Assembly: GCA_021030905.1 (NCBI GenBank)
Contig: JAGFMI010000003.1
Coordinates: 2,480,001-2,544,000 of the forward strand
Length of the DNA stretch: 64,000 nucleotides
Source of the DNA: Pyrenula massariospora
Lineage: Eukaryota > Ascomycota > Eurotiomycetes > Pyrenulales > Pyrenulaceae
Direction: 5' to 3'
Positions within the stretch are counted from its first letter, which is position 1. Every line of letters starts with the position of its first letter. The position numbers and the translations under genes are program-made. The notes under the pieces are model-generated. The model saw only the letters and a program-made list of their open reading frames with translations. It made no database searches and was not told the origin of the DNA. Positions 15,501-38,552 of this stretch are shown one piece after another.

Positions 15501-17666
15501 GAAGTACTGGTCTATCGAGGAGCAAAAATCAAATGAGCGATGGGGAAAGCTTTGGGACCTCTTGGAGAAGTTTCTCTCTTCTAATGCCAGTAAGACTTGG
15601 AAATCCTACCAATGGAATTATGATTATCTGGAACAGATTGGATTACAATCCATATATACTGGTGATGAGATCAAGCCCCTTCACTACGCAGCTGCATTAG
15701 GCTTGCACGCCTTTGTCGAAAAGCTCGTACGCCATGGTCACGATCCGAATGAATTCTCAAGTATCCTGGAATTACCCCTTCACTTCGCCACCAAGCGGCA
15801 AGTGCTTGATTACGAGATTCTGGAGCTTCTTCTCAATGCTGGCGCTGATCCAAATAAGACTGCCGATGACGAAACTCCATTTTGGTATCTCTTGTTATTT
15901 AACCCTCAAGCCAAGGCAGTAAAGCTTTTCGTCGACCATGGTGCGGACTGCATCAACACTGATAATTGGAAATTCGGTCCGGTTCACACTTGGGCTCTAT
16001 ATGGCAATGAGCCGGAAGTCCTCGATGTTCTAGTTGCTAAGGGTGCGGAGGTCAACAAAGTTGATGTAAACGGCGAAACGCCGCTACATTATCTACTTTA
16101 TCGTCCAGATGTTCCCATCGACTGCCTGCAAAATCTGTTGCGTAATGGCGCTCGACTTGATATTGACGACAAACAGTCCCAACAACCGTTGTATGAAGTC
16201 GCATCCGCTGGTAATGTCGCCGCTGCTCGAGAGATCCTAAATCAAGACCCACTTCCAGACCTTGCCGACTTGGATGAGCTGCATATGACTGCTGCACACA
16301 TTGCTGCGTACCGAGGTCATTCGGAAATCCTTACCCTTCTCAATGAAAAGGGTGCTCCGATGAATACGCAAGATGGATATGGGAGGACCCCCTTGATGTT
16401 TGCGTGTCTCGGAAACAAACCCGAAGCAGCCAGCACTCTATTAATGATCCTTACCGGGAATTCCCTGGAGGCTATCAACGTCTCAGATAAAGACGGTCGA
16501 ACACCTTTCCGAAAGGCAGCAAGGCACGGTCTTGTCGACGTTCTTCAGAAGTTGCTGAACCTTGATAAATCGAGAGCTTTGGTGAACGAAGTTGATCACA
16601 GCCACAGTACTGCTTTACATGTAGCTGCATCAAATGGGCACGAAAAGGCGGTGAAACTTCTTATGGACCATGAAGCTGACCCAGGTCTCAAGGACAAGGA
16701 CGGAAACACTCCCTTTTCCGCTTGCAGTAGTATTTGGTCCGAAGGTGGGGCAGAAGGATTTGAGAGAACAATTCTTCATCTCATCGAAAAGACACCGGAG
16801 AAATTCCTCCAAGCCTCGACAATTCTTGACACTGCAGCGAAGCGAGGTAGCTTAGAAGTCATAGAAGCACTTATCAATCGTGGAGTGGACGTGAATCAAA
16901 AAGACGCGCATGGATGGTCACCGCTGATGATTGCTAGACAGAATGGGCATGACGCCGTCGTCGAATTTCTAGAGCGCAAGGGAGCGGAGATCACGACACA
17001 ACCGACGAAGCTTGTGGACACCAACAATGGACTTCAGGTGTCCGAAAACGGTCTGGTTGTGCAGTCTAATGGACTAGACGATATCAGGCGATGTGTCTTT
17101 GCGGATCACCCCATACCTATAGGAGCAACTCGGTTCTACTTCGAGGTGAAAGTGGAGAACGATCCAGAGACCGACGAAGGGTCGCCCGTTGTCGGCGTCG
17201 GCCTCTCCACTAAACCCATCAGATGTCGAGATCGGATGCCTGGTTGGCCATCACCGCACGCACCTTGGTGGGGCTTCCATAGTGATGATGGAATGCTGTT
17301 TCATTACCTGGCATCAATGCTTGAACAAGGGGTGCGGCGACCCGGCTACCGCGAATGGAGTTTTGGGGACACGCTTGGCTGCGGTCTTGACGTGAAGAGC
17401 AAAGAAATGTTTTATACGCTCAATGGAGAAGCACTCGGTACGTGCAAGTCTTGGGATTGACGTGCTTCAGACCTAGCGAGCTAACAAAATACTCAATAGG
17501 CACCGCTTTTAACGATGTTCGTGGACAACTATTTCCAATAATTGGTATGAGGCAGAAGGCGATTGTTCGGGTAAACTTCGGGCCGGACGGTTTTGCATGG
17601 GAAGAGAGCGGAGCTTTCTTTGCAGGGCAAGATGTAAAGATCTCGATCAATGAGGCAGAAGAATAA
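12509..17666 (+). CDS. NLR-like protein: NACHT, ankyrin repeats, SPRY
   Basis: Four exons (12509..12850, 12948..14856, 14903..17437, 17500..17666) encode 1650 residues; introns are 97, 46 and 62 bp and all phases close. Residues 1-250 match the N-terminal helical region found in fungal STAND proteins (VGLVWMGLKMALNAV is built by the first splice). NACHT follows, with Walker A GEAGFGKST near 350 and Walker B LLVDALDEC near 472. A helical arm leads to a strongly acidic, low-complexity linker at about 760-880. Ankyrin repeats run from about 1008 to 1447 (for example KPLHYAAALGLHAF and TAAHIAAYRGHSEI), and the last 170 residues are a SPRY domain ending GQDVKISINEAEE. Such proteins are signal-transducing ATPases of fungal non-self recognition and cell death. 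Ankyrin repeats would sense ligand; SPRY as a C-terminal add-on is uncommon. Upstream TTG in frame is ignored; the ATG at 12509 is taken. Confidence 0.9.
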
Positions 17667-21080: not shown

Positions 21081-24005
21081 ATGATTGATGATACACGAGA
21101 GCTTCAGTATCGCGGCCAGGTCCCGGAGACACGCGCATTGCGGGGCCGTCTCTCTGACAGCGTCGACCAGATTTTAAGTAGCCCAGTGGCGCGGGCGCAT
21201 GCAAATCGATGGGCATGCAGCCTTCGCTTCCTAACTTTTGATGATGAAGGGGACGAGTGTTGTGAAGAGAGCCACACGGCTCTAACAACGGGTCAGAAGC
21301 GCGAGCAGCCTCTCAGTGGACAATGCCAGCCATGCGAAAGAAGAGTCCCCCTCCCTTCAGGTCACTTGTGCGGAGATCACAAAGGCAACAATCACCGCAG
21401 AGTCCAGGTTCGAGAAACCGAGCTGCGCAAATATAGTGACCCATGTGTCCACATTCGTGAACGTTCATGCCGTGACTGTCAGCATATCCCGCTTTTTCCA
21501 AATGAAGGGAAGCCAACGAGATTTCGAATTCGGAGAGTCTATCCGACGGATCACCAAGCGCCTAACTGCGGAGATTTTATCGCGGTATCTTACTGTTGGT
21601 CTAGTGAAGAGAAAAATGAAAAAGTGGACAGCTACAGTGTGGTCGAAGAAGATGGCAGCGTGCGAGAAGCACGGGCATCGACTGTCACTATTGACCGTGC
21701 CGTGGCCTTTGCGCGTGAGAACGGTTTTCGGATGATCTGGATCGACCAGGTTTGTCTTCACAACTTTGCCCGTGAGCAATGCTAGATGTGGAACTATACT
21801 CGCTGACGGCCATGTTTCAAACTTACAGGAGTGCATAGAGCAGGACAACCCTTCTAAGAAGGAACTTGCTATTCAAGCTATGGATTACGTGTACGTGAGA
21901 GCTCATACATCAATTGGGCTGTTTCACACTCAGTTACAGCAGAAGCACCTCGATAGCTTGCTGTTGGCCTACGAGGCTCGGATCAGTCACCGTTTTCGAC
22001 AGCGTCGCGGAAGGAGAGTATTTAAGGACTGTCGATGGCTTAATTGCAACGTCATGTACGAAGCGATGTCCCTGATTGTAAACGACAAGTGGAACACACG
22101 CGCGTGGATCTTACAAGAAGCCTTCGCTTCTAGTGGTAACATGGTGCTTCTATTCCCGAGGGCTAGTAAAATTGATGTCCGCGGGTGGTTACTAATATGT
22201 CATGAAATGTCACAGAGTGAGCTAGCAATACAGCTTGACGTAGTGCAAGATTGTCTTCAGATGTGCACGCCGATGATACAACCAGTCGTCTCCAATGCTT
22301 TGAATGGCCAGCAGAACAAAAGCAGCAAGCGACGAATAATGAAGGGAAGAAAATCCGAAAGACAAGAAATCTCCAGCAACGTAGACCAGGTACGAATATC
22401 CATGAGACGACTTCAATTCTTTCACCCCAGACAGCCAGAACATCCCTTTACAATCTACTGCGGCAACACAAAGCCGAGACGTACTTGCAATGCTGCGGTA
22501 GCTTTGACGTATCTTCAACTTCGCGAGCTTGAGCGTATAGCAGACAAGTTAGCTATCGTGGCAAACATATGCGGATATGAGCTTCGGTTGAACACTATTA
22601 AGCTAGAGTCAACTCAAAACAGCCTAGCTACGTGTGTCATGGCCCTCGCTCTTGCTAACGGTGATTTTTCGTTGCTGGTTCCTGAGCTTTATCGCTCACC
22701 AGAATTCAAAGCCAATGGTAGGTACTCACGTCTCTCAAGCTCTACGCAGTCTACTAAAAATGACTAGAATTTTCCTTGAGTGAAGATCAAGAGTTCTCCT
22801 GGGCTCATTACCTGACTCAAAACCTCCAAAATGTGCAGGCAACTGAATGGAATCCATATGGACCAACGGCTGGATCCAATGCTGCTGCAACAACCGGCTT
22901 CTCTGAGGAAGGACTTTCATTTCCAGGGGTTCTATGGAAGGTCGACAGATTCCTAGACCTGAGGCCCCTCCAAGTGAAATACGCCGATTCTTGGCTGCGG
23001 CTGCGTAAATCCAGTGGACCTTCACCTCACTCTCCCGAAAAAGTCATGCTAGCAACAACGCACATCTTGTTTGAAATCATCGAATTTTTGGTTGTCAGGG
23101 GCGAGAAGCGTGTGGCAAACTCAGTATTAAATTCAACTTCGCATTGGAGGTGGAACAATTTCCAGGGAGACCTAGAGGTGATCGAGTCTGTCGATGGATT
23201 TCCCTCGGGTCTAAAAATAGAGAATCGGAAAGGAATGTTTTCCCTCGACCATAGCCCTAATGGGTGGTATCATCAGTGTTGGATTATCGATAGAGTCATG
23301 GAGAAAGGCGGCCTTTGGGTTGGACGTGTCATGGAGCGAGGTATAAACATGGATGATGAATCGCATGATGTTAAGGATACGACCTTAGAGAATGACGAAG
23401 GTTCAATCAAAGGTGAATGTGCCACGAATTCTAAAATTAGAGCATCAAAAGACGTTGAGTCAAGTTCCTCCCAGAGTCCGGTGTCGCATCCCGGCTCTGA
23501 GTCCACGTCTTCTGCCCGGAAGCCAGAGCATGGGAGCCACAGTCGGATCATGCTCATGACCTGGTTGCTCACAATCTTAGGGGAAGAGGCCGCATATCGG
23601 AACAAGAACGATGTTGAGGCTGGTCTGCAGCGCCAAGAGAAAGAAGCCATCAGGTCCTACATCGTGGGAAACCAATCCCAGCACCTGGCTCCTCTGTTGA
23701 CTTGTTACAACGGAAAGAAGAACCCTCGAAACGCCTACCAGAGACAGGCTATCTTCGATGTAGATGGTAATGCAGAAGAAGGAACACTGGTACTCACACC
23801 TGTCCAGATGGTGCTCGAATCTATTCCAAGACCGACCATGCGCAGCATGAGCGTCTCATGGCTTGTGGAAATGGTTGAAAGTGGTGATGACAATAAAGAT
23901 GAGGAAAAGAACAGACTGAGCGCGCTAAAGTATAGGGCTAGGGACATGGTTAAGGGAATGTGGAACTTCTCGTTAATGCCTTCGGGGCGCTATGAGATCG
24001 TGTAA
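21081..24005 (+). CDS. HET-domain (heterokaryon incompatibility) protein
   Basis: Three exons (21081..21749, 21829..22717, 22768..24005) encode 931 residues; introns are 79 and 50 bp. The HET domain is recognised by DFIAVSYCWSSEEKNE near 163, DRAVAFARENGFRMIWIDQ near 204-222, joined by the first splice to ECIEQDNPSKKELAIQAMD, and later by NDKWNTRAWILQEAF near 335. The remaining 550 residues have no recognised domain but include GDFSLLVPE-like segments common to long HET proteins. A Ser/Asp/Glu-rich stretch lies around residues 710-770. HET proteins trigger cell death when incompatible hyphae fuse; the C-terminal part is usually the variable, partner-specific region. The next genes upstream are AAA and NLR-like, and together they resemble an incompatibility locus. 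The role in this species is inferred. Confidence 0.88.
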
Positions 24006-24904: not shown

Positions 24905-25441
24905 ATGGCCGCTCCTCAATTCGAAAGAATGCCTTCCAAGCGAGAAATACAAGTTGCGATTGCATCACTTCCCTCCAACACCTCCTATATTATAATACTC
25001 TGGGTCACAATGTATCTTCTTGACACTCCTTTTTCCGTCTTTTGGTACAATCCCTTGGAAGTATTGACGGCCATTTTCGTCTCTGCGGTCTTCCAATACC
25101 GCATCAGCTCTCACTTCCGTCCAATTTCGCTCATACTTTCATTAGCATTTATCATTGGCTTCAACTTCTTGATCTGGACGGTGATCTTTCATTCGGCTTT
25201 TGTGGATCGCAACAAAGAGGCGCAGAAAATGTTGAAGGAAGCGCAGGATGCTATGATGGACCAAGGGCAATCTCTAGATGATATACGGCGTGGGATTTTG
25301 GGAATGTTAGGACTATACGTGCTGATTGCTTCCTCGGGAGATCTTGCAGCAGATGCGGTGGAGTGGGTGATGAAATGGGCTGCTACTGGTGCCAAAGATG
25401 CTCGCGCTAAGAAAACAAGGCGTGGATCGAGTAGGTCCTGA
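24905..25441 (+). CDS. small membrane protein, 178 residues
   Basis: Start placed at the ATG giving MAAPQFERMPSK; the frame upstream has only TTG. Hydrophobic segments lie at about 28-45, 52-66 and 73-97, followed by a charged amphipathic helix (NKEAQKMLKEAQDAMMDQG) and a fourth hydrophobic stretch near 130-148. The tail is very basic (RAKKTRRGSSRS). The pattern LLDTPFSVFWYNPLEV sits where LGxPVDGxYNE occurs in the two clear paralogues at 35 and 36 kb, so this is probably a diverged member of the same family. No known family name. It is likely in an endomembrane or the plasma membrane. Confidence 0.6.
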   Translation: MAAPQFERMPSKREIQVAIASLPSNTSYIIILWVTMYLLDTPFSVFWYNPLEVLTAIFVSAVFQYRISSHFRPISLILSLAFIIGFNFLIWTVIFHSAFVDRNKEAQKMLKEAQDAMMDQGQSLDDIRRGILGMLGLYVLIASSGDLAADAVEWVMKWAATGAKDARAKKTRRGSSRS

Positions 25442-25517: not shown

Positions 25518-25543
25518 AAAATGGCTTTGTTCAAGACACAAAG
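25518..25543 (+). promoter_or_regulatory. shared promoter box, diverged copy
   Basis: AATGGCTTTG, four bases, then AGACACAAAG. This matches the gene-sense form of the box seen before the minus-strand members (AATGYCTTTG, spacer, AGACAAAGG), in the orientation expected for the plus-strand gene starting at 25760. It is about 115 bp upstream of the TATA box. Confidence 0.45.
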
Positions 25544-25655
25544 TTCTGCTTTATGTCATCAAAGAGAACGTTCAATCTACCATTTGTTTCTCTCAGGTCC
25601 AATGTACCTAGAAACACCAGCGCCAGTCTTCTAATCGGTCCTCTTATTGCTGACC

Positions 25656-25664
25656 TATATATAT
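25656..25664 (+). promoter_or_regulatory. TATA box
   Basis: TATATATAT about 96 bp before the start codon at 25760. This is the same spacing as the TATA boxes of the other small membrane protein genes. Confidence 0.5.
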
Positions 25665-25759
25665 GTCACTGCTAGCGTAGTGAGACGTTTCTTGTATCCC
25701 AACACTGGTTTTGCACTAACTCCCCAGCTCAAAGTCTTATCATCCGCCTGAGACTCGCA

Positions 25760-26074
25760 ATGACAACCAACTCAAGCCCTCCTCTCACCCCCAACATAAC
25801 CATCACACCCCCCAGCCCTAGCCTGAGCCCAACCCGCGCCGCCATCCCCAACGAGCTTCGCGAGCGATATAGGTATGTATTCCGTAGATTGGTCATCACT
25901 TCTCTGATACTACTAATCCTCGAGCTTAACACAGAATACAAATTCTTCACCATCCCATTGCTGGTGGTATTTGGACCGATTGTTGCGATCATCATGTTGG
26001 CTCTCGCCGCGTGGCTCGTTATGGCGCCATTTGTGCTGATCATGGATGAGATGGAGGGGAATCGCGGATGGTAG
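25760..26074 (+). CDS. very small membrane protein, 104 residues
   Basis: Pro/Ser/Thr-rich N-terminus (TPNITITPPSPSLSPT) facing one side, then two hydrophobic segments, LVITSLILLILEL and FTIPLLVVFGPIVAIIMLAL, running into a third. It ends with acidic MDEMEGNRGW. A possible intron (GTATGT at about 25873 to ACACAG) would destroy the hydrophobic segments, so the unspliced frame is preferred. It has a good TATA box and a diverged copy of the shared box upstream. No family recognised. Confidence 0.5.
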   Translation: MTTNSSPPLTPNITITPPSPSLSPTRAAIPNELRERYRYVFRRLVITSLILLILELNTEYKFFTIPLLVVFGPIVAIIMLALAAWLVMAPFVLIMDEMEGNRGW

Positions 26075-26856
26075 GTGGGTAAGAGGAAGGTCGAACGAAA
26101 TAGAGCATTCATGCAATGGTGAGCAAATAGGTTGTATTGAGAGATGGACATGGAAGGAGGCGAAGAAGGTAAGTCTCTGTAGACATATTTCACTCAAAAT
26201 CCGTCACACGGGTCTCTAAACTTTCGCCGGTACAATATCCGCAAACGCTGTTCCATATTTCAATGAGATTTGAGAGATAAGTGATTTTTATTATTTTGGT
26301 ACAACATTTGATTACAGTACTTGCTCGACTTCTGAACTATATCTGAACTCTGAACTTTATATTACTCTTGCTTCTTCACTAATTCCTCTGTCTTACTCTC
26401 TTCCCTCCTAATGTTTATTTCGTAGCGCTATTAATATTGACACTTTCTCTTCCCTTGAGTAGAGATTAGCGCAATGTTACTTATTCTTCCTCTGACCCTC
26501 TCTTTCCGACATCGGCCAGATTAAGGTATTTTACGATCAGTTATTGTCACCTCATCTCGTTTCTATCTTTGACTGCTGAAATCAGAAGTTTGAAAGTGCC
26601 TTACGAGCCACTCCCAGCACCTAGACCTCTTTCAACTATACCCATTACCTCATCTAACTCTATCCAAGCTCATACCTCGACAGAGCTCAACACTATTAAT
26701 ATCGCAGCCCGAGTTAACAACAATCAAGCGCGGTTTCCCGGAGACTGGAGCTAAATGGGATGCCAGTGGATCGAGGAGCTCGTGGAAGGAAGCCCGAAAC
26801 AGATCCCGGCCAAACCATAAGCCAGTAATGTAGAGGTAATAGATGTTATAGGAAAA
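26075..26856. other. pyrimidine-rich spacer
   Basis: Mostly T/C-rich DNA without convincing genes. A Pro/Ser/Thr-rich frame of about 60 codons at 26569..26754 lacks an ATG. It might be an upstream exon of the coiled-coil frame at 26857, but I could not find splice sites that join them. Confidence 0.4.
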
Positions 26857-27231
26857 ATGGTGGATAATATGCCAATAAGAGATCGTGAGTTCGCTGGGCT
26901 GCTGGCTACGGTGAAGCAGGAGCTTAGCCGTAAGAATCGTCATTTTGATGATAAAATTGACGAGACCTTTGAAATTGAAACAAGAGAATGTAGAAGAGAA
27001 GAGAAAAGAAAGGTCTGGCTTGTCACGGATGCAATCAGAAGCAGGTCAGAAACCCAGCAAGCTGGAGCTGAGCGGAATGAAACTATGAAGAAATGCGAAG
27101 AAGCGAAAGCCGAGCTGCAGAGACTAGAACGGAGAGCTGAGAAAGCAAGACAGAAGGTAAAGGAGCGTTTCCGGAGAACAGAGGTAAGGATGGGTGGCAA
27201 AGACCCTGGTTTCATGGCACACGGAGATTAG
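26857..27231 (+). CDS. small charged coiled-coil protein, 124 residues
   Basis: Starts MVDNMPIRDREFAGLL and is almost entirely a charged helix with heptad-like spacing, ending in a strongly basic Arg/Lys stretch. Composition is plausible for a real protein, but there is no recognised family and the N-terminus is uncertain. A second, unrelated-looking coiled-coil protein lies at 29.3 kb in the same gene-poor region. Confidence 0.4.
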   Translation: MVDNMPIRDREFAGLLATVKQELSRKNRHFDDKIDETFEIETRECRREEKRKVWLVTDAIRSRSETQQAGAERNETMKKCEEAKAELQRLERRAEKARQKVKERFRRTEVRMGGKDPGFMAHGD

Positions 27232-28037
27232 ACAGGTAGAAGTCGAGAGAATGGCAATGGCAGAAGAGACAATACGAATGTAGCCTTCCTCAAGACACTT
27301 AAACTTGAAGAGCTTCCCTTACTAGAATAGCTTGATGATATAGTCAGTTGTCATTCATTGTCTTCGAATGTGTTCTATGTCGGCTTCAGGCTCATCTGGC
27401 AGACAAAGAAAGTACAGTACAAAAAAATAGCAGAGAGAAGATGATTGATAGTAGATTAGTATCTCTTAGATGATCGAAGAGGTCATGCAGAAGCTGAGTA
27501 GCATGACCTCTGTTCTGGCTTTGCAATATTCTAATCAGTGTTCACTCTGGAAAATAGTCACCAACAGAGCCTAAATAGTCGAGTAGAGACATGAAATCAC
27601 ATCTTCTGATTCATTACCTCGATGTAAATAGCAGAGTTCTCCCAATTCACTCAAATTTCTGCACAAAACACATGGGCTCTACTTATCACTACATTAGTAC
27701 AAGCTTGAACACCCTGACAGCTTCCTAAACTTCTCATACTTCCTCTATAAACATTATCTCAAGTCCAAAATTCCTTTTTCCAGCGCATCAAGCTATGGAG
27801 AACAAGCCAGGACTTCTACATGATATCCTAACTTATCCATGGGTCTTGGAAGCTCACTACAGCGACAAGGATACCCACTCCGAGCACATGTTATAGCGTA
27901 TAGAGATGGCATAGTCGAACGTAGCTCCGTATCCAGTAGCTTATGAGCTAGCTAATAGAAAAGACACTTTTATTTACTCTTGAACACCTAATTGTATTTC
28001 TTGGGAGATTTCAATCATCCATTCTATCAGTCAAGGA
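27232..28037. other. gene-free AT-rich spacer
   Basis: No open frame over 60 codons on either strand. It contains loose CATTGTC words near 27355 that lack the partner half of the shared box. Confidence 0.5.
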
Positions 28038-28571
28038 TTATCGCAGAGCTCTCAATGCATCCCATTTCTCACGATACACATTATCCCAAGCCCAAATAGC
28101 GCCCCTCCCCACCAGTTCCACAAATGTCACAAGCTCTCCAGCCATACAAGTTATGGCAAGCACAACGGTAAAGCCGGCAAGCCAAGTACTTGTTTCCTTC
28201 AGGAGAAGTGTTGCATGGCGGAATCTGCGGGACTTGTCTCCCGGATCGATACAGTATTGATACCCCAGTATCCGCCAGAAGGAGCAGAAAAGCCAGAGTT
28301 GTGAATACCAAAAGAAGTAGATACCGTAACAATAAAATGGCAACAGAGCGAAGATAAGTAAGACGCTAATAAGCAACACCTCCCCGGAAGCATTGCCATG
28401 CCCCAATTCTGCTAGGCATGCTAAGGCGCAAGTACCGGCGACTGTCTTGAACACCTGAGGGAAGGGAATATCAAGAGCTAGCCGTAGAATCACAGCGGAT
28501 GCAGCAAGTAAGGTAACGATTCTTGGTGTTGCTTCTCCTGTGATTGAAAAGGCCGAGTGTTCGGTGGCCAT
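28038..28571 (-). CDS. small membrane protein, 177 residues
   Basis: Starts at ATG 28571. Four hydrophobic regions at about 17-35, 44-56, 65-95 and 130-155, the third rich in Phe, Tyr and Trp, with a polar basic loop (DKSRRFRHATLLLKE) before the last. The segment LALDIPFPQVFKTV followed by an ICxxA-like stretch (TCALACLAELGH) and LISVLLIFALL aligns in order with the 35- and 36-kb paralogues. A full copy of the shared promoter box and a TATA box precede it. Function unknown. The 35 C-terminal residues are polar and end EKWDALRALR. Confidence 0.65.
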   Translation of the reverse strand: MATEHSAFSITGEATPRIVTLLAASAVILRLALDIPFPQVFKTVAGTCALACLAELGHGNASGEVLLISVLLIFALLPFYCYGIYFFWYSQLWLFCSFWRILGYQYCIDPGDKSRRFRHATLLLKETSTWLAGFTVVLAITCMAGELVTFVELVGRGAIWAWDNVYREKWDALRALR

Positions 28572-28662
28572 GTGTGTTGTCGGGAACGAAATTTCAATGG
28601 GGACAGAAATTGTTGATAGATTTTGAGGATGGAGAGATCTGGAATAAAAGAAGTAGAATTGT

Positions 28663-28672
28663 TATTTTTATA
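28663..28672 (-). promoter_or_regulatory. TATA box
   Basis: TATAAAAATA on the minus strand, about 92 bp before the ATG of the 28.0-28.6 kb gene. Confidence 0.5.
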
Positions 28673-28760
28673 ACCACTCCTAAACAAAGATGGAAGCTTT
28701 AGAAAAGCCAAGCGGCAGTGAGATTTGTGTTGACCATAGCTAGGATGCGTGACGGCGTTT

Positions 28761-28790
28761 CGTCCTTTGTCTAAAGTGAAAGACATTGTT
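28761..28790 (-). promoter_or_regulatory. shared promoter box, full copy
   Basis: On the plus strand it reads CGTCCTTTGTCT, five bases, GAAAGACATTGTTT. Both halves and the five-base spacing match the boxes at 35.5 and 36.7 kb. It is 190 bp before the start codon. Confidence 0.7.
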
Positions 28791-29341
28791 TCAAGACTTC
28801 ATGGAAGGTGAAACTAATGGCTACTGTCTTAGTGATGAGTTGCTCTAGGCAGACTGGCATTAAATCAGATGTTGAGAAGAGTCTTAGGCCGTGATCCTTA
28901 AAAGAGTTCCATTTTTAATTCAAACTATACCCATCATTGCTCCGTCTCAAGCCCTTGATTCTTTGCCGTCCCAATTGCCAATTGTTGAAGAGTAGCCAGA
29001 TGATACTTTCTCGAGAATTAAGCAGATTATGGCTCAATTTGTCAGCATCAAATCGAGCCTAGGAGGTATGTCAGCCCAGGCGTAAAAGAAATATATGAAC
29101 TTCAAATTTCATTCAGAATCTCACCTTCCTCTCAACAGTAATTTTACTGAATTACCTTCATCCATCTCATGAATGTCGATCATTATCTCCTAGTTACATT
29201 GCTTTCGACGTAGAATAAGATCCATCAACCGTAAGCTCTCAACTCCACGTCATTGTAACTATTGTCCACCATAGTGCTATTCGAGTTTCCTCAAATACCC
29301 TCCAATCCCAGAGTTGTCTCACTGCCAACATTACTCAGATC

Positions 29342-29842
29342 ATGGCTTCTAAGATATCGACGTCTCCATCTTTGGACTCGCCTACATTTCCTCGCAAGCA
29401 TGCTATGCTAGTCAGAACTGCGAGCCCAAAAAAGAGGAAGGAGCCGCCAGGAGAGATGGACGAACCGATAGTCATAGTGAAACGTCGCCCCAACCAATCA
29501 GTCAGTAATCTTTCGGACAAACGGAAAAGGAGCGAAAAGCACGATGAGGACACAGTTGATGCCATTATGCGCATGACAAACGACCTAGTCACTCGAAATC
29601 GCAAGTTATCCGAAGCGCTAGATGCTCAGGATCGAGTAATCGCCAGATTGAAGGAGGAGAAGGACGAAGAAGACGCAAGGTATATCTACGCAGACATAGA
29701 ACGCATAAAAGTTACTGAAGAACGTGACGAGGCGATAGCAGAGCTTCTAGAGCTGGACAGAAAGCTCGAGCGGAGCAGGAAAGTTCTCGAGGAATCTCTG
29801 GGGCTGGAAACGACAGAGGGGTATGGGGATGCTTTTAAATAG
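29342..29842 (+). CDS. coiled-coil protein with basic N-terminus, 166 residues
   Basis: Single exon from ATG 29342. The first 70 residues are Ser/Pro/Lys-rich and contain nuclear-localisation-like clusters (SPKKRKEPPG, SDKRKRSEKH). From about 75 to 155 it is a continuous charged coiled coil with LVTRNRKLSEAL and ELLELDRKLERSRK heptads. It resembles small fungal proteins of unknown function with a bZIP-like look but no recognisable DNA-binding basic region next to a Leu zipper. No shared box was found upstream, so it may be unconnected to the membrane protein set. Confidence 0.55.
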   Translation: MASKISTSPSLDSPTFPRKHAMLVRTASPKKRKEPPGEMDEPIVIVKRRPNQSVSNLSDKRKRSEKHDEDTVDAIMRMTNDLVTRNRKLSEALDAQDRVIARLKEEKDEEDARYIYADIERIKVTEERDEAIAELLELDRKLERSRKVLEESLGLETTEGYGDAFK

Positions 29843-30282
29843 TCCGTTGGCAAGTGACACAAAAGTCAAGCTTGGGGAAATCGAAATGGGTCTGAAGGCG
29901 CCTCATTTTGCAAGGCAGATCTAATGCGCAACTGCAAAATCACGCTGCGAAATTATTGAGCATGGTGGAACGAGCTGGTTCTGGCAGCGATTCTGGTTAG
30001 GGAAGCATCATCGTGAAAACAATAAAATGGGCAGAAATATTACCTTACGATTGATAAAGAGGAGAAGATTCCTAGGATGAACTTAATGAAAGTTCTCTGA
30101 AGCTGATGATAGGTTTTCATTTGTGGATAAAAATACAGTGATAAGAGCCATTAAATCTCTATTGCTACGTGTGCAAGGTCTCTTCAGTTCTCTCCCTAGG
30201 TCCTGGATACAGGGAATTTGGAAGAAAACCTCCACTCAAGCAACAGCGATCAAGAGAACGTATGCCGGCTTAGGACACTACC

Positions 30283-30879
30283 TCATTCGTCACAATCCCA
30301 CTCCTCCTCCCTCGCTTCGACACCCACATGTCCACGACTAGATCCACACCGATATAGGATACCGTGTCCGTGCAGCTCAACATTCTGAGGATCTCTCAGC
30401 TTGTCCTTTTCATGAGCATGCGCAATCAGTCTAAGTGCTAGCCCTCCGATAATCGTCAACACAGCATACAGCACTAACTCTATCACAGCCAGCATGATCG
30501 CGTCCATCACATAGCCGTGCATCTCCTCCGCCTCCCTTGCACATTCCAGTGCATAGTCCGTCGCCCTGACCCATCGATAAACGTCGGTCTTGGATCCCGA
30601 GCGGAGGTAGTACCTCAAGGCAGCCGCCTTCACCAGTTTAGCAAGGCTTCCTATGTAGAAGACGAAAGTAATAAGTCCTTTTAAGGGGAGAGTTTGGATG
30701 ATGATCCATGATAGAACCACCATAGAGAGAACTTGCTCGTAGTCGGGAAGGGTGTAACCATAGATCTTGATTGCAAGGATGAATAGGAGGGTGTGTTCGA
30801 GGAAGGCGCAGATCTTCTTCGTCGTGGACGTCATATCGCCGGAGGTCCAAGCTGTTGTGATTATTTGGAATAGATCCAT
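30283..30879 (-). CDS. small membrane protein, 198 residues
   Basis: Start at ATG 30879 (MDLFQIITTAWTSG); the frame upstream offers only TTG. Hydrophobic segments at about 28-45, 52-70, 72-92 and 128-158, a polar helix with Arg/Tyr (ALRYYLRSGSK) and Glu-rich CAREAEEMHGY between the third and fourth, and a charged tail ending EAREEEWDCDE. Overall plan is that of the other members: three hydrophobic helices, polar helix, one more hydrophobic helix. A half copy of the shared box and a TATA box lie upstream. Confidence 0.62.
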   Translation of the reverse strand: MDLFQIITTAWTSGDMTSTTKKICAFLEHTLLFILAIKIYGYTLPDYEQVLSMVVLSWIIIQTLPLKGLITFVFYIGSLAKLVKAAALRYYLRSGSKTDVYRWVRATDYALECAREAEEMHGYVMDAIMLAVIELVLYAVLTIIGGLALRLIAHAHEKDKLRDPQNVELHGHGILYRCGSSRGHVGVEAREEEWDCDE

Positions 30880-30992
30880 GGTTGTCGATTTGTGCAAAAG
30901 TGCTGCCGTTTGTCTCTGTACCGTCTTAATATTTTCGGTTGAGCCGACAAGATGCTAAGACCTAGAGTCAAAAAGGTGAGCGAGAAAAAGGG

Positions 30993-31000
30993 TATTTATA
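30993..31000 (-). promoter_or_regulatory. TATA box
   Basis: TATAAATA on the minus strand about 115 bp before the start codon at 30879. Confidence 0.5.
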
Positions 31001-31103
31001 CCATATTTCTTATAGGGAGTAAGCTTTTATCTATCTACCAGTAACTTTACTATCGTTAAGAATGGTGAACTGTTGCCGACAGCTGATAGGCTCTGGTTTG
31101 TTT

Positions 31104-31115
31104 AAAGACATTGTC
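31104..31115 (-). promoter_or_regulatory. shared promoter box, half copy
   Basis: AAAGACATTGTC on the plus strand, identical to the right half of the boxes at 28.8 and 36.7 kb. The left half is only loosely kept (GGTTTG). It is about 225 bp before the start codon. Confidence 0.5.
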
Positions 31116-32427
31116 TTAACGGCACCGGAACGTGATGATTCGCAGATTTGTGAAACCGAATCGGTGAAGCGAAACGGTGATGTCGTGAGAGCCTAACAAA
31201 TGAAAATACTAATAAGTAATCGGTTTCAGATTCAGAGCTCACCATCATTGTAGAAAGTAATAGGCTCGTTGTGAAGATGAAAAAGACAAGAACCCGATAT
31301 CTCTTCACCCTTGAACTTCGGTTCTATTTGACTGGTAACTTTATCCTGTTTGTATTAGATCAGCTTGCATCAATTGCCCAGTCTGTGCTCTAACCCGTGA
31401 TATTTCCTTTCTAGGAAACCCAGACATGATTCGCTATTCCTGTAGAGAGATTTTCATCTGTTACTAAGATTGGAGTTGCTTGAATTGGTCATCGTGCTTG
31501 GTGTGCAGAGTCACTATTCGTGATACTTGAGGCTCAGCTTGTCACTTCATATGCACCTGTGCATACCAGTGAAGACTTATGGGCAATACTTTCACCTTCC
31601 TCCGGGCCTGGACTGATATATAGATATTATTTCTCGATTGGTTGAATGAATTCCGCCAGTAAAAGGGTCGCATTGTCCGTCCGCAATAGAGTCGGCGGAC
31701 GTCATAACGTTCTATCAAGCTCACAGTACATACCAACCGACCTTCTAACGTCACGCCACAATCCTGAACCTTCGCTGAGACACAGTAAGATCTTTCGATT
31801 TGTGGAGACATAGATTACACCGCTACGTCAGCGGCTTCGCTATTTCATCGGGAGCGGCAAGTAGAGGATCTCAGGAACCAAGCCGTGCTGCCTTAGTATG
31901 CTCTCAACTGCGAGCAATGAGTACATATTCATATTGCTACCTATCAAGACTTGAGAACGTGGATACGAAATGCGTGTAGAGTCAGAGCGCGAGATAAAGG
32001 AACGACTCCAAAAAAAGCACAAATAAACTGAGCGTGAAACCAGAATGCGATATGAACGAATAAAACCTAGGATCCAATTGATCTGCCCTCATCACCACGC
32101 AAGTTGCTACCTGACATATTTGCGATACGCGGTGACTCTTAAAGATAGCTTAAGACAAATTAACCATTGGTGAAGCCGGTGGGGATGAGGAAGATACGGA
32201 CAATTCTACCGCAGCGTAGAGCACATTCTTGAAGGTTTCGGGCCCCGGGAACGAAAAACGCATCCTGTCCTCCATTTCAAGGTAAATTTAGACTTATAAT
32301 CAATGTCCAACTACCCTATCTGACAGATGGCGGTCGCAACAACGGTCTAGGTGGTTTCAAGCTCCTCCTTTAGTCCCTAAGACAGGCTCACTTCGGTAGA
32401 TGTCTCAGTCGAATGCTCCGATGTGTT
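31116..32427. other. gene-free spacer
   Basis: Short motif-free frames only (all under 90 codons). No recognised repeat or element. Confidence 0.5.
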
Positions 32428-33198
32428 CTACTGCTTCCAGAAGAACGTGGTGCTCTCCTCGAGGATGTCGAACAGACTAGCCTCAACAGTGGCTTCGCCG
32501 CCGCCGGTCACGGTCGAGCTTTGGCTAAAGATGTTGCTGTTAGTTTCTGTGACCGTGTTGCCGAAGTTGTAGGTTGATTCCAGTGCTGAGATTGTCCGTG
32601 AAATCGACCTGGTCTAAGATGACAGCGGCAATTCCCTCGCTTGACGCCGATGGGTCTTGGTCGAGTACGGTATCGCTAACAACAAGTTTCTTGACAGTCG
32701 TGAAGAACACGAAAGCACGACAGTCGATTTGCGTACCGGCAAGACCAACGACGCCGACGAGAAGTCCCGACCCCAATTCAATAGACCAGGTATTTCAGTC
32801 TGAGGGACTTTTCCCAAATCCATCTTCTGACCTTTGCTAGTATTTATGACGAAGCATGAGCAGCGTCCGTCACTGCCTGTACTACCATTATCGTATAGAG
32901 GTAGGTTCTGGATTGTTTCCTCTCGTTGGAGTGTAATCGATGTATACCCGCCATTTTGGGAAGTGGTTTTGCCGTATATCGTCGGTAGGTTCTTAAGATC
33001 ATCATAAAACCAGTCATAGATTCCTATCGGAGCTTTGTCATCCTTCCAGAGATCGAGACGCCGTTTAACAAGGCCATTGGACTTCCCTCCACATGTCCCG
33101 AAATCACTCCCGCCAGTCCCGCCCCCAGGAGGTGCATACGGATCGTCTGGCCAAGTGCTTGGAGGGTCAATTTTGATCTTGTGACTTCTTGGCTGCAT
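32428..33198 (-). pseudogene. broken pore-forming-type (aerolysin/jacalin-like) fossil
   Basis: Coding-like sequence in which the reading frame is not continuous; I count about two breaks. The N-terminal part is Gly/Pro-rich with aromatic-rich strands, the middle resembles a jacalin-like beta-prism strand set, and the last part has the Ser/Thr-alternating strands typical of aerolysin-type beta-pore proteins. Family assignment is tentative. It looks fairly young, since long stretches remain open. It sits alone among the small membrane genes. Confidence 0.4.
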
Positions 33199-34724
33199 CG
33201 TTGTGAATAGAAGTTTGATTTTGATAAATACGACTTGATCACTTTCATAGCAGATTAAGCGGGCTTTGTATCGGTGAGGATGCTGAAATCAAAGCTCTTT
33301 CGAAACGCCGAGACTCCGAGCACCCTTAAATAGAGGCGAGAATAAACTTCGGTCTTACACAAATGACGATGACCCGTACCTGTTCAGCAAGACTATGAGC
33401 AAGCCATGTACCTATAGAGAACATTAAATTTTATAAATCACACACTCCAGTTGTCCTTCTGAGAAGTGCTTACGTAGTTCCACTGAGGAGCCTCGTTTTA
33501 AGCCACATCGCCGTACTGGATATTTGGATTGCCTATTGAAACCAATTAGAGCTCATCGATTCGGAGTCTGATATCATTCTCCAGCCAGCCATAAAGATTT
33601 CACCTAGTTGCTTCCATCCTTTAGATCCAGTCTTAGCTAGCCTCGAGTAATGAGGAGCCTGTGTTTGGTGGCATCGTAGAAATTTCAATAGTTATGTATA
33701 GCGGCATGATGTCGTCACGGGCGTTATCCATATCAAACACGCATAGAGATCTATTACCTAGTCTCAAGCGTCTTCGGGGATAAACGGGGAAGACACGAAA
33801 GAGCAGCCTATAGCGACCACATCTTCAAAATTTAGACTCTTGCGCCAGACTGGGTTTTGTTTGGACGCGCATACTCAGACTGCGGCGGTAAGCTCGAACC
33901 ACTATTGAAAATATCTGAGCTGAAGAGCCTGATAGTCTCCTCGTATTTAGAACAGAAGGATATTCTCAGGTAGCAAAGTTCGAAAGGCAAAATGGCCTGC
34001 ATGCCTCTGTAGGTCTCAAGTGGTAAGGAAGATTTTGAGAGGTTGCATGGTAGGATAGAGCAGCTGATTGGCACTTTCTAGCGCTTTCGCGCCTCGTATA
34101 AGCTGTGATTGTTGAGCGCTACAGACTGCAATTTAAGATGCCCAGAGATAGAAGATTGCTCTAAGAGCATAGGCCATCAACAAGATGCGGTTGCCTGGGG
34201 AGAATAGAAGCACCGTTCGCGATTCTAAGAAGCAGATTCGGGAGGTATTTGAATGTAGCATTCGAGGAATCAAAATTCTAGATCTGCATTGTCGGCGAGC
34301 AGTCACAATGGTAGTCGGTAAGATGTCGACGCACTCTGCGCCCCGGTTGGCACTTCCTAAAGCAGGTTAGCTCCAAAAAAGCGGCGGCTGATCATCTTTC
34401 CCGTAGCTTTGTCGATGAAAGGTTAGCTAATAGACAAAGAAACTGCTATTGATGTAGAATAAAATGGGGAACACGATGTCTCAAAGTGGTTGAATAGCTA
34501 CACACGATGCGAACATCTATTTGCTTTACTCATTCAAACTACCTAGGTGACGGATAGTGGCACACTTATCCAGAGCATGGTAAGAAAGTTATCACAAATA
34601 AAATTCTATTCGAAGTTTGAAATCTGTGTTGTAATAGAGCTAATCCTCTCGAATAGAGCTAGTCATATCAATACCAAAGCCAGAACCCAGATCTAGGGTC
34701 TAATGCTTTCCTCATCTCTCATCG
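33199..34724. other. gene-free spacer
   Basis: No supported gene. One 80-codon minus-strand frame (33832..34074) has no recognisable features. Upstream of the fossil, at about 33326, a TTTAAG word stands where a promoter would be expected. Confidence 0.5.
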
Positions 34725-35345
34725 TCACTGGGTTGTACATCGGGCGCTCGGCCGTACTTGCACGTATCTGACTAACGACATACACATCTCTCGCATCGCG
34801 GGCCAAGCCGTCTCCAAGGCCCAAGTCATACCGTCCGCAGGCAATCTCCCCGATGCGGCATGAGCCAGAAAATCTCCAGCCACCGCTAGCAGCAGAGTTT
34901 GCAATATCCACGCACGTGCGTCAAGCAGCAACAAGCGCACACTAGTAGTTGCATGGTCCCTACTTCTCAACAAGGGCCAATCATTTAACTCATCAATCTC
35001 ATCGTTGCAGACATGTAGAAGAAGATTGATCCTCTTTTCCATCTGCTGTTCAAACCTGTCGGCCAAATGCGGGCCCATGAGTTCCACAAAAGCGCAGATC
35101 GAAACAAGAAAAAGCACTCTATGGACGACGTTCATCTTCTGATGTACAAGGATCGCTAGGTACGCCATTGTGCAGATGTAGAGAACTTCGTTGTACGCTC
35201 CATCAACAGGCGCCCCGAGGACATGCGCGACGAGCGCGAACGGCACGAGAAGGAATGAGCGGATCTTTTCTATCATGCTCGAAGCCGATTCCGAGGCTAT
35301 CCGGTTGTCGCTCAGGACTGGAGAGGGCCCCGGCTTCTGATACAT
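34725..35345 (-). CDS. small membrane protein, PVDGxYNE family, 206 residues
   Basis: Start at ATG 35345 (MYQKPGPSPVLSDN); the upstream GTG is not used. Hydrophobic segments at about 31-50, 54-72, 77-95 and 145-165. The first ends in LGAPVDGAYNEVLYICTMA, followed by VHQKMNVVHRVLFLVSI; these match the 36-kb protein almost position by position. After the third helix comes a polar helix with basic and Asp/Glu residues, then the last hydrophobic segment. The extra 60 C-terminal residues are absent from the 36-kb paralogue. Full shared box and TATA box lie upstream. Function unknown; a small transporter-like or stress-related membrane role cannot be chosen from sequence. Confidence 0.7.
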   Translation of the reverse strand: MYQKPGPSPVLSDNRIASESASSMIEKIRSFLLVPFALVAHVLGAPVDGAYNEVLYICTMAYLAILVHQKMNVVHRVLFLVSICAFVELMGPHLADRFEQQMEKRINLLLHVCNDEIDELNDWPLLRSRDHATTSVRLLLLDARAWILQTLLLAVAGDFLAHAASGRLPADGMTWALETAWPAMREMCMSLVRYVQVRPSARCTTQ

Positions 35346-35442
35346 GATCCTCACTTTGCGGTATAGAATGTTTTGGCAGTTTTCCTGAAGAGTCTCGATA
35401 ATGGTGGATGTATGGAAAGCTGCTGAAGTGGTGGCAGATGGC

Positions 35443-35450
35443 TATTTATA
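35443..35450 (-). promoter_or_regulatory. TATA box
   Basis: TATAAATA on the minus strand about 98 bp before the start codon at 35345. Confidence 0.55.
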
Positions 35451-35535
35451 GTACCTATGTAGTGTCAAGGCGAGTCTTTCTGAAGGCGCCAACGATAGCA
35501 AGACAGACGCCGGTACGACTCGCGGCCTGCTGTCT

Positions 35536-35570
35536 AGGACTTCCTTTGTCTACGAGCAAAGGCATTGTCC
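35536..35570 (-). promoter_or_regulatory. shared promoter box, full copy
   Basis: Plus-strand halves AGGACTTCCTTTGTCT and CAAAGGCATTGTCC around five spacer bases. Outside the spacer it differs from the 36.7-kb copy at only three positions. It lies 191 bp before the start codon. Confidence 0.75.
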
Positions 35571-36077
35571 TGACTGACTCAAAGCAAAGACCCTCTTCCA
35601 TTGATCTGCAGAGGTGACGTCAAAAATGAACGCATTACAGGCAAAGACAGTTCCAAGAGTAAGAACTCTTGCAGATGGCTTTTATTTATGATCCGACTAA
35701 CAAACGTTCTCGGATAGAGAGAAGTTTCTCAAATGACGATACAGTGTCTACGCCTATGGAGCAGAGCGAAGAAGTACACCTAAAGCTCACATTTACCCCT
35801 GAAACTTGACGGGGAATTACGTATCCATTCTAGGCTTACTTAGTAAGGGGAAGAAGCAAAGAGAAAGACTAGCCAAAGCAGCTTCAAAGAAGTAGATGTT
35901 TATTAGCTTCTCGGGTCGCCTGCGGATTGGCGCCTATGGAACCAGATCACTCCATGTGGGAGGCGGCATAATCCAGCACATCTCTAACCACCGCCACGAT
36001 CTCCCCAACCACCACCGCCCACAAAGTCTGCCACATCCAACGCTCCACATCAGCCAGGTACAGATCGAGAAGCTCAT
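35571..36077. other. spacer between paralogues
   Basis: Nothing recognisable beyond the two gene ends. Confidence 0.45.
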
Positions 36078-36509
36078 CTATGACGTAGTGCTCCATTTCC
36101 AAGGACTTTTTATCATATTTGATCCACTGAACCCGTTTTTGGTCCTCGCCCCCCGCTCGAGGATCTTCATCATGATTTGCGCTCCTCCGACCAAGCCCCA
36201 GACGCAGGCTACGAAGAGGGACAGCAGAAACAGCGCACCAGCGACAACACCAAACTTTTGGTGGACTCGATACGTCAAAATTGCCACCGCGCAGATGTGC
36301 GCAATTTCATTGTAGATGCCGTCAACCGGCACCCCAAGAAAACGCATGATGAGCGCAAAGGGTACGAGGAACAACAGAAGGAGTGAGAAAACTTTCGCCG
36401 CTATATCGAGAGCCATGTCGGAAGTCTCCATGTTGTCAACTGTATTGTCCGCGGCCGAGGCAGTCATCTCGTTGTTTTGGATGGGGAAGGATTGGAGTTT
36501 TCGGGTCAT
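36078..36509 (-). CDS. small membrane protein, PVDGxYNE family, 143 residues
   Basis: Start at ATG 36509 (MTRKLQSFPIQNNEM); the longer frame begins with GTG. Polar N-terminus of about 35 residues with many Ala, Asp and Ser, then hydrophobic segments at about 38-62, 66-80 and 87-110. Signature LGVPVDGIYNEIAHICAVA followed by VHQKFGVVAGALFLLSL is shared with the neighbour at 34.7-35.3 kb. The tail is basic and short, lacking the fourth hydrophobic segment. Same strand, same promoter layout and about 1.2 kb spacing indicate tandem duplication followed by divergence. Confidence 0.7.
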   Translation of the reverse strand: MTRKLQSFPIQNNEMTASAADNTVDNMETSDMALDIAAKVFSLLLLFLVPFALIMRFLGVPVDGIYNEIAHICAVAILTYRVHQKFGVVAGALFLLSLFVACVWGLVGGAQIMMKILERGARTKNGFSGSNMIKSPWKWSTTS

Positions 36510-36588
36510 GATATGTTCTGCGTGGTGTAAAGTGCTCGTTGAATAATGCAGGGAATGGACGAAGACCCACTCTAGGAAACACACCGGA

Positions 36589-36598
36589 TATTTATATA
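36589..36598 (-). promoter_or_regulatory. TATA box
   Basis: TATATAAATA on the minus strand about 80 bp before the start codon at 36509. Confidence 0.55.
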
Positions 36599-36662
36599 TT
36601 ATTCCTCATGGAGCGATATTTCACGCCAGCGATATCATCATACGCGGGAGGACGTGCTGCTT

Positions 36663-36697
36663 AGGACGTCCATTGTCTCAAAACAAAGACATTGTCC
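36663..36697 (-). promoter_or_regulatory. shared promoter box, full copy
   Basis: Plus-strand halves AGGACGTCCATTGTCT and CAAAGACATTGTCC around five spacer bases. The ATTGTC word occurs twice in the same direction 18 bp apart, as for a factor that binds as a tandem dimer. It lies 154 bp before the start codon. Confidence 0.75.
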
Positions 36698-36946
36698 CAC
36701 TGCCCTTAAGAGGTAATATGCATTGATCAACTGGCGGAAATAATAACGGCAGAGAAAATTCACTTGGATACCCTCACATACGCGATTAAAATAATGAACG
36801 TCCTTCATTAAAAGAAAATCCAATCCATACAGAAAGACGACTCGGAAACGTCAAAGTGAAAATCCACACAGACAGCTTCACCTATATGATCAAACCACGA
36901 GAGTCGCCGTCACAGGCACAACCGTTTCCTAATTACTATTTTACCC

Positions 36947-37180
36947 TCAAAACTCGACCAGGACCATCTCCAACAGACTCAAAACATACGGAAAGGTCTT
37001 CTCCCCACAGTCATCCACGAATGCAAGCAGCGGGGTCCCTATCTGCGTACCCAGCGGCGCGAGCACAGCCCGCCATACCCCCATCCCAACCGCCTCCAAA
37101 ACCCACAGGAGAACTTGTAAGATCAAGATGCGAAGTGCGAGGTCTCCGAGCGCTAAGGAAGGATTATTTACTCCTTCCAT
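36947..37180 (-). CDS. very small membrane protein, 77 residues
   Basis: Begins MEGVNNPSLALGDL at the first ATG in a longer frame. One long hydrophobic region, LRILILQVLLWVLEAVGMGVW, then a second weaker one and an amphipathic end (PYVLSLLEMVLVEF). A TATA-like TATTTATA lies about 85 bp upstream, but the shared box is not clearly present. It could also be the remaining part of a larger family member. No family recognised. Confidence 0.4.
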   Translation of the reverse strand: MEGVNNPSLALGDLALRILILQVLLWVLEAVGMGVWRAVLAPLGTQIGTPLLAFVDDCGEKTFPYVLSLLEMVLVEF

Positions 37181-37190
37181 CTCGAATGTT

Positions 37191-37216
37191 GTATGTATAT
37201 ATATGTATATATGTAT
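37191..37216. repeat. GTATAT microsatellite
   Basis: Short TA/GTA-rich tract just upstream of the 77-residue gene. Confidence 0.6.
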
Positions 37217-38249
37217 CGGCGGGATCGGATGTTGAGACTTCCCAGAAGCCCAGGTAATGCAAGACATATAAATAGAGAAAGAGAGTGGCGGTGAAGGTTT
37301 CGCCCAGCCGGTGGGGAAAATTGATGGAAGTGTTTAGTTTTAGAAACTGCGGTTTGTAGTGTGGGTGAGATAAAGTAAGGGAGGTGATTGTGGTTGGTTG
37401 ATGAGAGAGGTTAGGAGTTTGTTGCTTACTCACTAGGAGTAGTTAAGGTAGGGTAGATAGATGGATAATTGGACGGGGCTCGGGTTTTTGTTCGGTGACA
37501 GATATAATGATGGAGACAATGGTATTGTTGTGGATGACTGGGGGGGGAAGGGAAAAGGGAAGGGGAAGGGAGGTAATAAGAGTGGATAGGAGTCGATCAC
37601 ATGAGGAGGTCTGAGTGATGGAGTTTCATGATCTCCGTGGAATTACATATTCATCAACCTAGTTCTGGACGATGACTCAAGGTTAGAATTGTTGCCACGG
37701 TTTGTGACAAGCTATCCGGTAAACTGAGTATTTCATACAACCTAACGTTCACTTCTCCGTACGAAATTTCTAGATCGCGCTCTACTCTCATAATCACAAA
37801 CTATACCGCAATAAACGGGCGCCCCTTTAGCCTACCACTTAATCTACCTAATGCTTTTTCAACCTCCAAAGCACCACGATCTTGATATCCAAGAAATGAA
37901 AAAAAATCCCACATCAGCGTACGTGATTCTATGCACCCAATCTAGACGGTAGTCAGACCCTCATAGACTACACGGCACAATGGCTTCCACCCAAAAAATC
38001 TCGATAAACCCATTGTCCCCAACAACGGCGGTCCACCTCGCCTTTGTCCGCAGGCCCCATTCCCCTTGTCCCCTTCCACATCGCGCAACTCCCAAGACCC
38101 TCCCTAATTCCGCCACCGTCTCCAAAACCCCCCTGCCAAAATTCCCTTTCACGATCAAACTCCCCAAGCCTCCAATCTCTCACATTCTGTTCTCGTCTCT
38201 TCTAGCTCATACACACTAAATATCATCTCCCCAAGCCAAAACCCCCACG
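37217..38249. other. spacer with purine-rich tract
   Basis: Contains a G/A-only tract (about 37540..37573) with several G runs that could form a non-B structure on the plus strand. The last 270 bases are pyrimidine-rich on the plus strand and look like the leader of the next gene. GAGACAATGG at 37513..37522 resembles one half of the shared box. Confidence 0.45.
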
Positions 38250-38552
38250 ATGTCCCTCTCAACCCTCGCCCTCATCTCAGCAGACCTCCGCACCAGATGG
38301 CCCTACATCCTGATCGCGCTGTTCAACGGCGTCTGGCTAACAGCAGAAGTGTTCAACATCATCTTCGTGCAGAACAGCCAGTTCAGCTTGGTCTATCTGG
38401 TGTATCTGACGGTCGTTGCGTGCTTGATGGGAGTTGCGTGGTGCTTGTTTTTGGGGAGCGTGGCTGTGGGGCCGGTGGTGGGGTGTGTGAGGCGGAGGAG
38501 GAGGGAGAGGGCGAGGAGGGGAGGGGAAGGGGGGGAGAGGTTTGGCGTGTAA
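38250..38552 (+). CDS. very small membrane protein, 100 residues
   Basis: Starts MSLSTLALISADLRTRWP, then hydrophobic segments ILIALFNGVWLTAEVFNIIF, FSLVYLVYLTVVACLMGVAW and LFLGSVAVGPVVGCV, ending in a very basic Arg-rich tail. Length and plan match the other minimal membrane proteins of the region. The Arg/Gly-rich end comes from a purine-rich stretch and may be partly chance. No family recognised. Confidence 0.5.
   Translation: MSLSTLALISADLRTRWPYILIALFNGVWLTAEVFNIIFVQNSQFSLVYLVYLTVVACLMGVAWCLFLGSVAVGPVVGCVRRRRRERARRGGEGGERFGV

Follow-up and report, generated by a model that had tools for sequence, protein, structure and literature searches.

Introduction

Descriptions of fungal regulatory sites give several short recognition words. 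In the sexual-cycle network of Podospora anserina, high mobility group (HMG) box factors have the core A(A/T)CAA(A/T)G and the site (A/G)ACAAAGAA (PMC3730723). The Ste11 TR box of Schizosaccharomyces pombe reads TTCTTTGTTY (PMC3416868), the pheromone response element (PRE) of the smut factor Prf1 reads ACAAAGGGA (PMC3248468), and the yeast Rox1 site is YYYATTGTTCTC, with DNA bending by the HMG domain described for Rox1 (PMC2763219). For Neurospora and Penicillium, mating-type factor sites are mentioned as clustering in target promoters (PMC10512297). The element considered here lies in a window of 64,000 nucleotides of Pyrenula massariospora DNA (contig JAGFMI010000003.1, positions 2,480,001 to 2,544,000). 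It is a box of 27 bases, TCCWTTGTCT-N6-AAAGRCATTGT, standing before three minus-strand genes for small membrane proteins (g28, g34 and g36), and each copy contains two RACAAWG half sites 19 bp apart.

The resemblance to the described sites is one of the core. All seven half sites of the four defining promoters (those of g28, g34 and g36, and that of a fourth gene, g30, which carries the right half only) read RACAAWG in gene sense. They share this core with the Podospora sites and likewise stand upstream of start codons (PMC3730723), but the box is a fixed pair 19 bp apart and was found in one orphan cluster only. The left half, TCCTTTGTCT on the plus strand, resembles both the TR box and the PRE. 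The g28 and g34 copies read ACAAAGGA against ACAAAGGGA of the PRE, from which they differ in being one base short, in lineage, and in that no link to a pheromone receptor gene is seen in this genome. The pattern ACAAAGG(G)A is matched at g28, at g34 and, inverted, at g24, in all three cases by the shorter ACAAAGGA, and the complete PRE does not occur in the cluster promoters. With respect to Rox1, the left half of g36, TCCATTGT, fits YYYATTGT and every half site contains TTGT, whereas the match does not extend letter for letter to the TTCTC tail, and the targets of Rox1 are oxygen genes (PMC2763219). Literature searches found nothing on ACAAAGGGA together with HMG-box, and nothing relevant on GACAATGTC among the matches listed.

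Sequence comparison leads to a solid but modest conclusion, namely that the box is real, is confined to this locus and is a conserved element in the promoters of a small orphan paralog family. The fuller explanation, in which the box was kept as a transcription-factor element during local duplication, is fairly probable. The box would have been copied together with the genes of a small orphan membrane-protein family, and purifying selection would then have held it as the coding sequence drifted. We infer that a protein binds the box and that the genes are co-expressed. The locus offers a clean example of a promoter element that persists as its proteins drift past easy recognition, and such a promoter helps in recognising the members of an orphan family.

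Architecture of the box promoters

Eight short open reading frames (ORFs) with hydrophobic segments, g24, g25, g28, g30, g34, g36, g37 and g38, lie between 24.9 and 38.6 kb of the window (Table 1). They were selected manually among ORFs that begin with ATG, encode at least 100 amino acids (aa) and bear a hydrophobic segment. Dropped from the set were the antisense frames 25729-26151, 35896-36315 and 36886-37257, together with the ORFs at 26857, 29342 and 32614, in which the coding strand has no hydrophobic segment; no GACAAWG occurs within 400 bp upstream of the dropped ORFs 26857 and 29342.

Table 1. Positions of the box copies, TATA sequences and small membrane-protein ORFs in the window.
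Feature	Position	Strand	Description
Full box of g28	28763..28789	-	Gene sense ACAATGTCTTT-N6-AGACAAAGGA; exact match and upstream alignment
Full box of g34	35542..35568	-	Gene sense ACAATGCCTTT-N6-AGACAAAGGA; exact match and alignment with g36
Full box of g36	36669..36695	-	Gene sense ACAATGTCTTT-N6-AGACAATGGA; exact match and alignment with g34
Right half only, g30	31104..31115	-	0 mismatches; overlapping reverse-strand match at 31107
TATA-like sequence of g28	28662..28673	-	TTATAAAAATAA, 91-102 bp before ATG
TATA box of g30	30993..31000	-	TATAAATA, 114-121 bp before ATG
TATA box of g34	35443..35450	-	TATAAATA, 98-105 bp before ATG
TATA box of g36	36589..36596	-	TATAAATA, 80-87 bp before ATG
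g24	24905..25441	+	178 aa ORF, hydrophobic segments; RACAAWG at -296, -225
g25	25760..26074	+	104 aa ORF, one hydrophobic segment; RACAAWG at -235
g28	28038..28571	-	177 aa, three hydrophobic segments, no Pfam match
g30	30283..30879	-	198 aa, three hydrophobic segments, no Pfam match above cut-off
g34	34725..35345	-	206 aa, three hydrophobic segments, paralog of g36
g36	36078..36509	-	143 aa, paralog of g34; last part leaves the g34 frame
g37	36947..37267	-	106 aa ORF (77 aa from second ATG at 37180); RACAAWG at -254 from first ATG
g38	38250..38552	+	100 aa ORF, hydrophobic segments; RACAAWG at -239, -208

The three full boxes have the same orientation and stand at a similar distance from the ATG: 192-218 bp in g28, 197-223 bp in g34 and 160-186 bp in g36, with the half box of g30 at 225-236 bp. 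The original prediction had placed them at 150-195 bp, which these distances replace. Its two halves are found exactly at all three genes; the spacer, given there as five or six bases, is six in every copy, its letters varying between two blocks of fixed length. Its further statements, that the fourth gene at 30.3 kb keeps the right half and that a TATA box follows each copy, agree with what is found: g30 matches the 12-base right-half word at 12 of 12 positions (g28 has one mismatch to it), and a TATA or TATA-like sequence lies 80-121 bp before the ATG in all four promoters. As a promoter element, the box would thus present two transcription-factor half sites 72-91 bp upstream of TATA in the three full-box promoters; the half box of g30 lies 103 bp upstream of its own.

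The right half could also be read as a translation signal, with ACAATGYCTTT as a start codon in good context that opens an upstream frame or a longer protein form. An ATG followed by YCTTT is present in all four copies, giving MSFTLDKG in g28 and MPLLVDKG in g34. However, the frame opened in the box stops after four codons in g36, 26 in g30 and 36 in g34, and in g28, where it runs on, it is not the frame of the gene. TATA separates box and ATG in all four promoters, the left half is left unexplained, and this reading is highly improbable.

Paralogy of the full-box genes

The full-box genes g28, g34 and g36 are paralogs, a point that the original prediction had missed. The relationship is clear for g34 and g36 (E value 4.6e-13; 50% identity across the matched part), and g28 scores 68 against g36, where the maximum of 300 local shuffles is 49. 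The direct comparison of g28 with g34 is weak (score 44, equalled in 4 of 300 shuffles) and that of g24 with g34 is marginal (score 50, equalled in 3 of 300); among the 28 pairs compared, none of the seven involving g30 stands out. When the genome was searched with g28, g30, g34 and g36, no additional family member appeared, and g24, the fifth query used, gave two weak matches elsewhere (E values 0.018 and 0.073). Toward the end of g36, at 35890-36140, a likeness to the C-terminal part of g34 is visible by eye in an adjacent frame just downstream, and the g36 copy looks frame-broken near a run of G, unless that run was misread.

None of the eight ORFs has a Pfam match above cut-off. A protein search extending to an E value of 10 and covering g34 and g28 gave no homolog of either (1108 and 281 candidates, respectively). 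The database does contain fungi; the nearest relatives of the ORC4 protein encoded in the window are only 71% and 59% (Pyrenula ochraceoflavens) identical, which means that no close relative is available for comparison and that orphan status is weak evidence. The predicted structure of g34 is all helical, with a mean predicted local distance difference test (pLDDT) score of 46.4, too poor for a fold search, and a literature search on orphan tandem small membrane genes yielded nothing relevant among the matches listed.

Conservation of the box

Within the window, the pattern TCCWTTGTCT-N7-AAGRCATTGT has three matches when up to three mismatches are allowed; all three are exact, and 0.02 are expected by shuffling. 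The pattern was derived from these same sequences. A less biased measure compares whole 350-bp upstream regions by their best ungapped 27-base match. Here, 22 bases agree between g28 and g36, 21 between g28 and g34 and 21 between g34 and g36. Of 1000 dinucleotide shuffles, 0, 2 and 1, respectively, attain these values, and none attains all three. In a control with real genomic sequence, comprising 3000 random pairs from 390 pieces, 22 was reached by 2 pairs and 21 by 9. The best 27-base matches of g30 with the other three (18, 18 and 19) are ordinary and located elsewhere.

Common descent accounts for the presence of the box at all three full-box genes, these being paralogs. The promoters might then be alike only through gene copying, the box being a functionless relic of duplication; in favour of this, the genome searches gave no additional copy of the genes or of the exact box. 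Several comparisons speak against such a relic, and it is distinctly unlikely. In the upstream alignment of g34 and g36, counted in blocks of 30 bases, 12, 11 and 11 bases are identical from -330 to -241 (34 of 90 bases), 21 and 21 over the box, and 12, 16 and 13 over the next 90 bases, which are gapped; the best coding stretches reach 19 to 23. Among the 50 best aligned codons, positions 1, 2 and 3 agree at 32, 39 and 22. The box region, a 43-base stretch picked as the best aligned and to that extent favoured, is identical at 34 of 43 bases, compared with 6 of 17 fourfold-degenerate third positions (Fisher p 0.002). Similarly, g28 and g36 have 22 of the 27 box bases in common despite aligned proteins that are only 22% identical.

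Selection on the box at the level of DNA is supported by these alignments, because the box was kept while synonymous sites approach saturation and the flanks are near random. The substitutions within the box have no codon rhythm by eye and the frame from the box ATG of g36 is so short that the constraint looks to be on DNA. Two claims of the original prediction, that the coding regions had diverged more than the boxes and that selection had maintained the latter, are in this way borne out, the former for g34 and g36.

Genome-wide distribution

The original prediction had proposed a motif search of the whole genome, with matches expected before other genes for small membrane proteins. In the genome of 37.8 Mb in 33 contigs, the exact composite was found three times, each time in the cluster, when gaps of 5 to 9 bases were admitted. 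A mobile element or repeat as the source of the box is rejected on this count. Holding the gap constant and tolerating as many as three mismatches adds 13 matches, all at exactly three mismatches; a reversed control pattern gives 3. The 12-base right half has 23 exact matches, three of them within the cluster, and its reversed control has 7. Outside the window there are 20 right halves. Twelve are situated within open frames of more than 150 codons, and the other 8 never stand before an ORF with a hydrophobic segment. Of these 8, one stands 222 bp before a 426 aa ORF in the same orientation and three stand before ORFs in the opposite orientation, where ORFs beginning with ATG were counted from 90 aa upward at distances of 60-350 bp and without regard to introns. 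This gives no support to a wide regulon of small membrane-protein genes. Pairs of GACAAWG separated by 4 to 20 bases number 59 in the genome, and 29 in the reversed control.

The RACAAWG core across the cluster

The core of the box recurs before the other ORFs of the cluster. RACAAWG, chosen as the test word after the box had been seen, has 15 sites in the combined upstream regions of the eight ORFs (300 bp each, 2400 bases in all), compared with 10 in the 12601 bases that make up the rest of 24-39 kb and 32 in the 48999 bases of the window outside that interval. All eight ORFs have a site within 300 bp of the first ATG, as do 12 of 57 background promoters. For g24, g25, g37 and g38, which did not define the box, the comparison is 4 of 4 against 12 of 57 (Fisher p 0.0035), and their six sites in 300 bp contrast with a shuffle mean of 0.74, no shuffle of 1000 being as high. 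The background promoters come from loci of about 3 kb retrieved in earlier genome searches and from the remainder of the window. They were defined by intronless ORFs of at least 150 codons, and those holding the motif by which they were fetched were dropped, which could lower the background slightly. Fourteen of the 15 sites fall between -168 and -300 (p 7e-5 against an even spread, with the boundary set after the sites had been seen). Of all 7-mers in these upstream regions, GACAATG comes out on top and ACAAAGG next, partly because the paralogs are counted separately; the 6-mers ranked above ACAAWG are mostly TATA-like. These counts are suggestive of an extension of the box core to all eight ORFs. 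Before g37, on the plus strand at 37516-37528, ACAATGGTATTGT contains inverted ACAAT and ATTGT words three bases apart.

The candidate binding factor

The resemblance of the half sites to HMG sites, asserted in the original prediction, is supported at the level of the core. An HMG-box factor is tentatively put forward as the likeliest binder of the box, with one molecule per half and the two proteins perhaps on roughly the same face of the helix. Such a factor would introduce a bend in the DNA and would jointly activate or repress the TATA promoters across the cluster. The genome encodes HMG-box proteins, with 9 HMG_box matches over the cut-off (one only with in-frame neighbours). If the HMG link holds, these otherwise featureless small membrane proteins would be tied to sexual or fusion control, a first functional handle on them.

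The main rival keeps the box as a regulatory element but has it read by a non-HMG factor, for example a dimer on GACA-n-TGTC for which the left block would supply an additional half site. The right half contains the near-palindrome GACATTGTC; in g30, the sole case without a left half, right half and flanks form a perfect 13-base palindrome around one base (AAGACA-T-TGTCTT, plus strand, at 31104), and a dimer would demand the strict spacing seen in the three full boxes. In g28 (TTGTT) and g34 (GGCA), however, the palindrome is less well formed, whereas ACAAWG is intact in every one of the seven half sites. The sites of the four non-defining ORFs were found by RACAAWG alone. A dimer of this kind is rather unlikely.

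Other observations weigh against the HMG factor and its reach across the cluster. The exact (A/G)ACAAAGAA site is found in 0 of the 8 upstream regions of 400 bp. The pheromone receptor genes, their first exons being unmapped, would seem to have no close site: there is no RACAAWG in the 1.5 kb before the STE3 match, and one, at 1400 bp, before that of STE2. A gap of 12 bases is not preferred among the GACAAWG pairs of the genome (4 of 59, two being the cluster's own). The p value of the top 7-mer, 2.1e-5, treats the paralogs as independent and is uncorrected for about 8000 words, and ACAAWG comes about sixth among 36864 6-mers with one twofold position (p 7.5e-5, not significant once corrected). 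Five of the six sites of g24, g25, g37 and g38 have the opposite orientation, and the g37 site falls beyond 300 bp if the ORF is started at its second ATG. Antisense frames overlap g25, g36 and g37, in a set of eight chosen by hand.

Two exact (A/G)ACAAAGAA words occur at 27402 and 34433, downstream of g28 and g34; an inverted C(A/T)TTGTC starts 46 bases before the first and 26 bases before the second.

Genomic setting

Pfam matches on the window identify ORC4, an aconitase-family enzyme, and NACHT, ankyrin/SPRY and HET-domain ORFs; Rfam gives no match in the window at the gathering score. The NACHT-type ORF, the ankyrin-SPRY ORF and the HET-domain ORFs, at 12963-17460 and 21081-22767, adjoin the small membrane-protein cluster. 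ORFs of the NACHT, ankyrin and HET types are of a kind known from fungal self/non-self recognition. A wider reading of the locus would make it a 13-kb nursery of fast-changing orphan membrane-protein genes beside these neighbours, run as one unit under a mating-type or fusion-type HMG factor through RACAAWG in every promoter on both strands. This is unlikely; if true, the regulatory code would outlast the proteins under its control.

Interspersed among the membrane-protein genes on the plus strand are ORFs at 26857-27231 and 29342-29842, which are rich in charged residues and coiled-coil-like and may form another duplicated family. A subtelomeric position was considered for the cluster: about 76 kb beyond it lies the end of the contig, in AT-rich sequence, and no telomere repeats occur in the last 778 or first 400 bases of the contig. 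The end itself is very AT-rich without telomere repeats, as in blocks of repeat-induced mutation.

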